From Pirellula staleyi DSM 6068 (GTDB lineage Bacteria > Planctomycetota > Planctomycetia > Pirellulales > Pirellulaceae): 40,576 nucleotides of DNA. Numbering within the stretch: position 1 is the stretch's first letter; the number at the start of each line of letters is the position of its first letter. The position numbers and the translations under genes were made by a program. The stretch spans positions 1 through 40,576 of the forward strand of contig CAMBSL010000024.1 in NCBI GenBank assembly GCA_945870455.1. The letters run 5' to 3'. The notes beneath the pieces were generated by a model. The model did not search any database. It was given only the letters and a program-made list of their open reading frames with translations, and was not told the origin of the DNA. Shown here piece by piece: positions 17,721-18,402 of this stretch.

Positions 17721-17780
17721 GAACCACGAAAGGCACGAAAAGCACGAACAAATACACTGATGTTTTTCGTGTTTTTCGTG
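17721..17780. repeat. Upstream 9-bp CACGAAARR array with inverted arm
   Basis: GAAC is followed by three 9-base units: CACGAAAGG (17725), CACGAAAAG (17734) and CACGAACAA (17743, partly diverged). After AAATACACTGATG come two units in the opposite orientation, TTTTTCGTG (17763-17771) and TTTTTCGTG (17772-17780). The two halves can fold into a stem of about 18 pairs (three of them G-U) with a loop of about 20 bases, ending 18 bases before the GxxExxY start codon. Confidence 0.9.
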
Positions 17781-17798
17781 ATTAAGAAAGGAAGCCGC

Positions 17799-18179
17799 AT
17801 GAGCGAAACAATCCTTTTCAAAGAAGAAAGCTACGCGATCCAAGGTGCAATCTTCGAGGTCTATCGAGAAATGGGCTGCGGCTTTCTGGAATCAGTTTAC
17901 CAGGAGTGTCTGGAGTTAGAGTTGCACAGCCGAGACATTCCCTTTGTCGCTCAACAAGAATTACTGCATCACTACAAATCCAAACCGCTGAAAACCAAGT
18001 TTATCCCAGATTTTGTTTGCTACGGGCAAATAGTCGTTGAATTGAAAGCAGTCAAAGACATTGCTCCCGAGCACAAAGCACAAGTAATCAACTACTTGAA
18101 AGCAACCCGCATGAAACTTGGCTTATTAGTCAACTTTGGCGCATACCCAAAAGCAACCATCATCCGACTGGCACTTTAA
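17799..18179 (+). CDS. GxxExxY protein, PD-(D/E)XK nuclease-like
   Basis: 126 residues. The family name motif is present as GFLESVY (about residues 27-33), followed by QECLELELHSRDIPFVAQQE, matching the GxxExxY family, which is grouped with PD-(D/E)XK nucleases. The nuclease-like signature is PDFVCYGQIVVELKAV: an Asp after the beta strand, then E-x-K. No helix-turn-helix or membrane segment is seen. AAAGGAAG lies just upstream of the ATG at 17799, supporting that start. An in-frame ATG at 17760 would add MFFVFFVIKKGSR, whose FFVFFV is encoded by the 9-bp repeat itself. The gene is enclosed on both sides by CACGAAA repeat arrays, suggesting that gene and repeats form one unit. Its biochemical role is unknown; a DNA-related activity is inferred from the fold only. 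Confidence 0.88.
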   Translation: MSETILFKEESYAIQGAIFEVYREMGCGFLESVYQECLELELHSRDIPFVAQQELLHHYKSKPLKTKFIPDFVCYGQIVVELKAVKDIAPEHKAQVINYLKATRMKLGLLVNFGAYPKATIIRLAL

Positions 18180-18190
18180 GTTTCTGGAAC

Positions 18191-18234
18191 CACGAAAGGC
18201 ACGAAAACCACGAAAGGCACGAAAACCACGAAAG
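18191..18234 (+). repeat. Downstream 9-bp CACGAAARR array, direct orientation
   Basis: Five contiguous 9-base units start at 18191, 18200, 18209, 18218 and 18227, alternating CACGAAAGG and CACGAAAAC, preceded by GGAAC. The array begins 11 bases after the GxxExxY stop and is followed by AAATACAC (18235-18242), the same octamer that follows the upstream array at 17750-17757. Confidence 0.95.
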
Positions 18235-18370
18235 AAATACACACGAGAAAAAAGTCCACGAGTGCAAGAATTGCGAACTGAAACGTCATACCAGACGACT
18301 GCAGGGAGAAAACTGCGGGGAGAAAACCGACTTGCTGCTGCATTCATGAGTCTACCTGTCGTTCCCTCTT
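18235..18370. other. Non-coding spacer between opposed repeat arrays
   Basis: About 136 bases between the direct and inverted CACGAAA arrays. The only reading frame is the one that translates the repeat as RKARKPRK, which I regard as spurious. A short near-duplication (GGGAGAAAACTGC and GGGGAGAAAACCG) lies near 18305-18330. No promoter or RNA gene was recognised. Confidence 0.6.
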
Positions 18371-18402
18371 GTTTTCGTGCCTTTCGTGTTTTTCGTGGTT
18401 CA
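18371..18402 (-). repeat. Downstream 9-bp array, inverted orientation
   Basis: Three units in reverse orientation: GTTTTCGTG (18371-18379), CCTTTCGTG (18380-18388) and TTTTTCGTG (18389-18397), then GTTC. Read on the - strand this is GAAC followed by CACGAAAAA, CACGAAAGG and CACGAAAAC. It pairs with 18200-18226 at 26 of 27 positions across a loop of about 144 bases. It lies 8 bases beyond the stop codon of the convergent LmbE-type gene. Confidence 0.93.

Follow-up and report, generated by a model that had tools for sequence, protein, structure and literature searches.

Layout of the block at 17721–18402

In a stretch of 40,576 nucleotides from Pirellula staleyi DSM 6068 (hereafter the window), a single small gene between those for a TPR protein and a PIG-L deacetylase is enclosed on both sides by arrays of a short repeated unit. 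This raises the question of what the gene and its repeats are to each other, and whether they move together. The first-pass annotation, made from the sequence alone, had proposed that they form one mobile or self-amplifying unit similar to REP elements and their RAYT enzymes, with the repeat as the target of the protein.

The whole element spans positions 17721–18402 of the window, on the forward strand, and consists of a GxxExxY gene within terminal inverted repeats of CACGAAARR-type units; orthologous blocks are present in two related genomes (G009 and G016). On the left, GAAC and three direct units (17721–17751, forward strand, units from 17725) are followed by an inverted array (17763–17783, reverse strand), with two units at 17763–17780, that closes a hairpin. 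On the right, GAAC and five direct units (18187–18235, forward strand, units at 18191–18235) are separated by a spacer of about 136 bases from the inverted array that forms the outer end of the element (18371–18402, reverse strand, three units ending at 18397, then GTTC). The array positions and their order on both sides of the gene are as initially described, as are the GAAC that precedes each direct array and the octamer AAATACAC that follows it, read in the sequence at 17750–17757 and 18235–18242 (both forward strand). The description of the unit as a strict 9-base repeat does not hold: CACGAAAAC is found in two of the five right direct units and in one right inverted unit, the third left direct unit reads CACGAACAA, and steps of 8, 9 and 10 all occur across loci. 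The exact CACGAAARR motif is present ten times in the window, nine of these inside the block, against 2.77 expected, and none of 100 shuffled sequences reaches ten.

The block is bounded by a pair of inverted repeats, with GAACCACGAAA..CACGAAA at each outer end, and the whole therefore looks like one element. Left and right sides also each fold into a hairpin of their own (as single-stranded DNA, z −4.4 and −4.7 respectively, with 0 of 200 shuffles equally stable). The gene most likely starts at the ATG at 17799, after a predicted ribosome-binding site read in the sequence as AAAGGAAG (17787–17794, forward strand); an earlier in-frame ATG, at 17760, sits within the left hairpin. This gene (17799–18179, forward strand, 126 amino acids) is the only one of annotated size in the block, and no transposase gene lies within the element.

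The GxxExxY protein

The protein had been assigned to GxxExxY, a PD-(D/E)XK-like family, and both parts of this assignment are confirmed by profile matches over nearly its full length (TIGR04256, E 1.3e-40, 138.4 bits for a cut-off of 35; PF13366, E 6.1e-41, 139.9 bits for a cut-off of 22), by its conserved residues and by its fold. In an alignment of 59 proteins, residues E31, D71, K83 and Q95 are invariant, and E81 is found in at least 90%; the motif is D-ExK-QxxxY. The structure model of the window protein (pLDDT 93) has as its best structural match 4ic1, the Cas4 protein SSO0001 (Foldseek E 1.1e-4; Z 10.0, rmsd 3.3 over 98 residues); restriction enzymes, exonucleases and a further Cas4 also match, all with Z below 8. 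The model and the conserved active-site residues together predict a small RecB/Cas4-like PD-(D/E)XK nuclease. Cas4 proteins possess iron-sulphur cluster cysteines; in the 59 sequences, none of the invariant or nearly invariant positions is a cysteine.

No Pfam domain other than PF13366 is detected in the protein at E 0.01, be it a Y1 HUH, DDE transposase or PF05635 domain, and a sequence search of the PDB gave no match up to E 1. PHROGs yielded two matches (E 0.088 and 0.093), and PADLOC a weak match to PDC-M36A (E 3.9e-5). The dN/dS of the window gene is 0.08 between G000, the genome of the window, and G009, and 0.45 between G000 and G016, the latter on eight changes only.

Gene and arms across bacteria

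Of 294 genomes sampled from the phylum, 139 have a GxxExxY match, and the best 80 relatives include 15 named phyla among the 60 rows with labels, with cultured isolates represented. Inverted arms scoring at least 22 flank the gene in 47 of these 80 loci, compared to 33 of 2098 placements at other positions within these loci. A three-unit rule, written after viewing the 114 loci of a first set, identified a left direct array together with a right inverted one in 44 of them and at 0 of 1785 control placements, and an array on some side in 87. The rule was then applied unchanged to 70 further loci (30 fetched, and the 40 next in list order, with one near a contig end skipped): the two-sided arrangement is present in 38 of these against 0 of 740 placements, an array on some side in 54, and inverted arms in 52, against 14 of 740 placements. 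This test set is not fully independent, with L443 identical to L255 of the first set over 2845 bases; in addition, L393/L410, L398/L401/L414 and L439/L452 each represent the same site, since their similarity extends well into the flanks. With the rule fixed beforehand, the 38 loci against no placement support the view that gene and arrays form one unit. GxxExxY genes with no detectable array, which the first-pass annotation had listed as part of the evidence against such a unit, do exist (no array on either side in 27 of 114 and 16 of 70 loci).

Most of the arms displayed consist of tandem units such as CACGGAG, CGCCAAG, CACAGATT and CACGAAG, and of 120 arms (from 60 of the 80 loci, score at least 18) 97 have their best self-lag at 8 or 9. 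Statistics on unit number, length, ends and duplications cover 150 loci and only those arms that satisfy the three-unit rule. Exactly three units are present in 172 of 186 such arms, the median element length is 478 bp (73 elements), and the consensus outside the first unit is TTMAC, the ends reading TTMAC-CRC (72 elements). No target duplication of 2–9 bp was found above the level of shuffled partners in 72 elements, the ends of which are placed approximately.

Eight plasmid records contain a match. Among four that were examined, one has clear arms (score 24), in Bacteroides finegoldii between radA and a FAD-dependent gene, and the others score 12, 13.5 and 17.5. Phage records gave no match, and viral contigs a single relative among 19 pattern stretches. 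Three Pedobacter loci have conserved surroundings and no arms (scores 12–14.5), and these copies may be domesticated.

Copies and remnants in the same genome

Five PF13366 matches are present in the genome of the window, and CACGAAA arrays are found there at four places, namely the window and contigs C50, C259 and C124. In C50 and C259 the array lies directly 3' of a remnant of the gene's 3' end, with stop codon and spacer included; no gene remnant was seen at the C124 array. This array separates two genes in G000 and G016 that adjoin without it in G023, G015, G020 and G021, and G009 has a different insert at this site.

Two further GxxExxY copies, on C27 and C300, have arrays of the CGCGGAG type. 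They have a 593-bp block in common, 89% identical, which starts in an outer array and stops less than 20 bases past the right array; no further similarity was found in their 3.35-kb loci, and the flanks are unrelated. Between the two coding sequences there are 10 synonymous and 2 non-synonymous differences (dN/dS 0.06). The C27 copy, also found in G009, sits where the hsdM gene of a type I restriction system breaks off, and hsdM in G024 continues beyond this point. It is not a clean insertion in hsdM, as the remainder of that gene is missing there. At the hsdM-hsdR site that has a GxxExxY element in G000, G016 (L342, C308) and G024 (L341, C262) carry a Y1-type gene with REP-like repeats.

Presence, absence and decay in relatives

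At the place it occupies in the window, the block is found in the three closest species only; its conservation there in all relatives, which the first-pass annotation had named as refuting the proposal, is not what is seen. The orthologous blocks in G009 and G016 differ in array numbers, and the former has a second right hairpin that takes in the 3' tip of the gene. In G009 only (L347, C2), a short frame is located between the element and PIG-L, to the right of the second hairpin; its product may resemble the beginning of a type I restriction R subunit. PIG-L (at least 56% identity) is present in 26 of 27 genomes of the genus, while the TPR neighbour is found within the PIG-L flank (up to 1.5 kb compared) only where the block itself is present, in three species. 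No empty site for the window locus was found in the genomes of the genus, nor a counterpart with both flanks adjoining for three gene-less sites in G009. No base-exact empty site was found for any element, with the presence and absence at C124 lacking exact ends, and the hsdM junction having lost sequence.

Internally deleted copies are dispersed in G021, a sister species, where 28 PF13366 matches include three of near full length. Among the loci fetched, 19 other places are related to one full element of about 555 bp. At 15 of them a left and a right piece remain while the gene lacks its middle, and 7 of the 15 reach both outer ends. In this element (L060:1386–1940) and its relatives, an outer inverted repeat, TAAGCACC..GGTGCTTA, lies beyond the GGATTTACA arrays. 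TAAGCACC is absent from four other GxxExxY loci examined, so another transposon may have carried the G021 element. Together, the near-copies on C27 and C300 that end near their arrays, the deleted derivatives in G021, the break in hsdM and the C124 site with and without array support the proposal that the unit is mobile or self-amplifying.

The first-pass annotation had also named arrays away from the gene as evidence against the unit. In the window's own genome, two of the three places that lack an intact gene have a 3' remnant, and C124 shows none; G050 counts against the unit, with 72 array matches for one GxxExxY gene. The inverted arms of that gene are a diverged form (37 nt, 78% complementary, beginning TTGGAACCGCGAAA). 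Many of the G050 arrays (L147–L160) are plus/minus pairs spaced 91 or 134 bp, embedded in larger repeats that they have in common (GTAGCCGAGGTC, TGGCACGGTC). G009 and G016 have, at many places on several contigs, another repeat some 40 bp long, arranged in rows at a spacing of about 90 bp (for example L009:204–244).

Unit type and the protein tree

Trees were computed for 141 and 131 of the 184 loci, on few columns; loci without a scored array were left out, as were, for the smaller set, unit types seen fewer than four times. Unit type requires 45 changes on the tree of 131 proteins, compared to 78.0 when shuffled (0 of 200 shuffles as low), and the class defined by the last core base requires 8 against 26.9 (141 rows). 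The T class of this base comprises 20 rows, six named phyla among them, and is not a single clade. The GAAA unit type requires one change, and corresponds to the clade of the window together with a gammaproteobacterial relative that has 59% identity to the protein in the window. For the 60 rows with a named host, phylum requires 28 changes (42.9 shuffled) and unit type 32 (39.9 shuffled), so that host phylum is the more clustered of the two. Two cyanobacterial elements are 77% identical over 479 columns, with unrelated flanks; their units differ jointly in both arms (CCAAG in one, CAGAG in the other), and the adjacent arm sequence is kept. Judged from these sequences, unit type clusters on the protein tree, i.e. 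follows the protein clade, which is indirect support for the repeats as a possible target of the GxxExxY protein.

Similarity to other gene-and-repeat systems

Own repeats are found at 14 of 25 Y1 loci (12 genomes) and, under the same test, at 19 of 36 GxxExxY loci. Inverted arms are present in 11 of 20 IVP loci (12 genomes), and 23 of 32 IVP arms have 7-bp units. The repeat test took in 20 of 36 IVP matches and 25 of 30 fetched Y1 loci, and the unit count 16 of the 17 IVP loci given. By these counts, more than one gene family is accompanied by repeats, and the kind of repeat differs from family to family. Among L166–L190, e.g. L166 (G021 C33), L173 (G000 C1) and L183 (G000 C138), 11 of 20 loci have an IVP/four-helix gene (PF05635) with inverted 7-bp arrays on either side (GAGTTGAGGG, GTTCTTTGTTC, AAATTTGAG), a parallel gene-plus-repeat system. 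Both they and the IVP/S23 genes of 23S rRNA intervening sequences are small genes within inverted arrays of short tandem units, as in GxxExxY elements, but the protein is unrelated and the units are of 7 rather than 8–9 bp; for the Coxiella intervening sequence, heptameric repeats 5' of its gene are described (PMC4990558).

A close likeness is to REPtrons and TIRtrons, i.e. RAYT Y1 genes with REP/REPIN or long terminal inverted repeats (PMC3116915, PMC3733652). There too, the gene of a small DNA-processing enzyme lies between its own inverted repeats, gene-less hairpin copies are found elsewhere, and gene and repeats vary together; no target duplication was detected in GxxExxY elements (2–9 bp, 72 elements with approximate ends). 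The arrangement used to recognise a REPtron, inverted pairs that flank the gene with gene-less copies elsewhere, is found in GxxExxY elements. The comparison made initially is apt for the layout of gene and repeats but not for the enzyme, which belongs to another superfamily: RAYT is a Y1 HUH enzyme, GxxExxY a PD-(D/E)XK nuclease. Moreover, REPtron repeats are GTAG-tagged palindromes, whereas GxxExxY arms are tandem 8–9-bp units, and RAYTs are described as single-copy, unlike the full GxxExxY elements, which can be duplicated (C27 and C300). The E. coli RAYT is reported to cut REP DNA as a single strand (PMC3116915, PMC3733652).

The GxxExxY protein shares with Cas4/RecB-type nucleases the fold match to 4ic1 and the D-ExK-QxxxY motif, but is much shorter, lacks conserved cysteines and is free-standing in its element. 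Insertion sequences with terminal inverted repeats and their MITEs have such repeats and internally deleted derivatives in common with GxxExxY elements, which differ from insertion sequences in possessing no DDE transposase and in their size of about 480 bp; no target duplication was detected in 72 of them, with ends placed approximately. No association of GxxExxY with repeats was found in the portions of the open-access literature searched, and an earlier report in subscription journals is possible.

A model for the element

The reading I favour, with a probability of roughly 0.6, is that the block is a copy of a very small mobile element, whose nuclease would recognise its own units, cut in or close to the arms, and thereby move or copy the element. 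Such an element would comprise one GxxExxY gene with terminal inverted repeats on both sides, usually of three 8–9-bp units each, following the pattern TTMAC plus three repeats of CRCNNAG, AT or AA, set apart by short spacers (CACGAAARR in this block). Recognition of the units would probably take place on single-stranded or hairpin DNA, and gene-less derivatives that retain the arms may be mobilised in trans. In favour of this reading are the counts of gene with arms, the signs of duplication and decay, the clustering of unit type on the tree, the conserved active-site residues, and the dN/dS of 0.08 (G000 and G009) and 0.06 (C27 and C300). Several observations weaken it: no base-exact empty site was found, the G050 arrays face one gene with diverged arms and lie in larger repeats, the G021 element has an outer repeat, 16 of 70 genes have no array, host phylum is more clustered than unit type, and dN/dS between G000 and G016 is 0.45.

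Some of the same observations would fit a passive cassette, the arms of which are moved by a resident RAYT, by an IS transposase, or by slippage or repair at hairpins, while the nuclease serves repair or defence. Each of the 12 genomes searched has Y1 genes, and the outer inverted repeat in G021, the composite repeats of G050 and the weak PADLOC match to PDC-M36A all point in this direction. I nonetheless regard it as unlikely, given that the arms accompany the GxxExxY gene in 15 named phyla, that the repeats at Y1 and IVP genes are of different types, and that unit type appears to follow the protein. Still less probable is a regulatory role, in which the arms would act as hairpins in the transcript of a domesticated nuclease gene and govern its translation, stability or termination, so that selection rather than mobility would maintain them. 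The hairpins adjoin both the start and the end of the gene, and many loci are inherited vertically with their arms (L393/L410, L398/L401/L414), as this would predict; against it stand the gene-less and internally deleted copies at other sites, and a sequence rule common to many phyla where any hairpin would do. Finally, short tandem repeats that merely happen to lie beside a short gene can be dismissed: triple arrays on one side are also seen at control placements (28 of 1785 and 6 of 740), but the two-sided arrangement is found in 82 of 184 gene loci and at 0 of 2525 placements.

Implications

A broader reading can be put forward tentatively, at a little short of even odds. GxxExxY elements could represent a new class of autonomous mobile DNA, of about 480 bp and one gene, with a free-standing RecB/Cas4-like PD-(D/E)XK nuclease as sole dedicated enzyme, co-evolving triple-unit terminal repeats, no target duplication, and gene-less derivatives moved in trans, in many bacterial phyla. 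This would be a further independent invention of the strategy of a gene with its own repeats, beside RAYT/REP and IVP with its 7-bp units. Independently of this broader reading, the association of gene and arms provides a testable role for the widespread GxxExxY family of unknown function, and ties a class of short tandem repeats to one gene; as the units are diverse and come with matching proteins, recognition can be tested directly. Movement of the arms by the nuclease, should it occur, would make a RecB/Cas4-like nuclease a free-standing mobility enzyme, and such a role would bear on how nucleases of this type entered CRISPR and repair systems.
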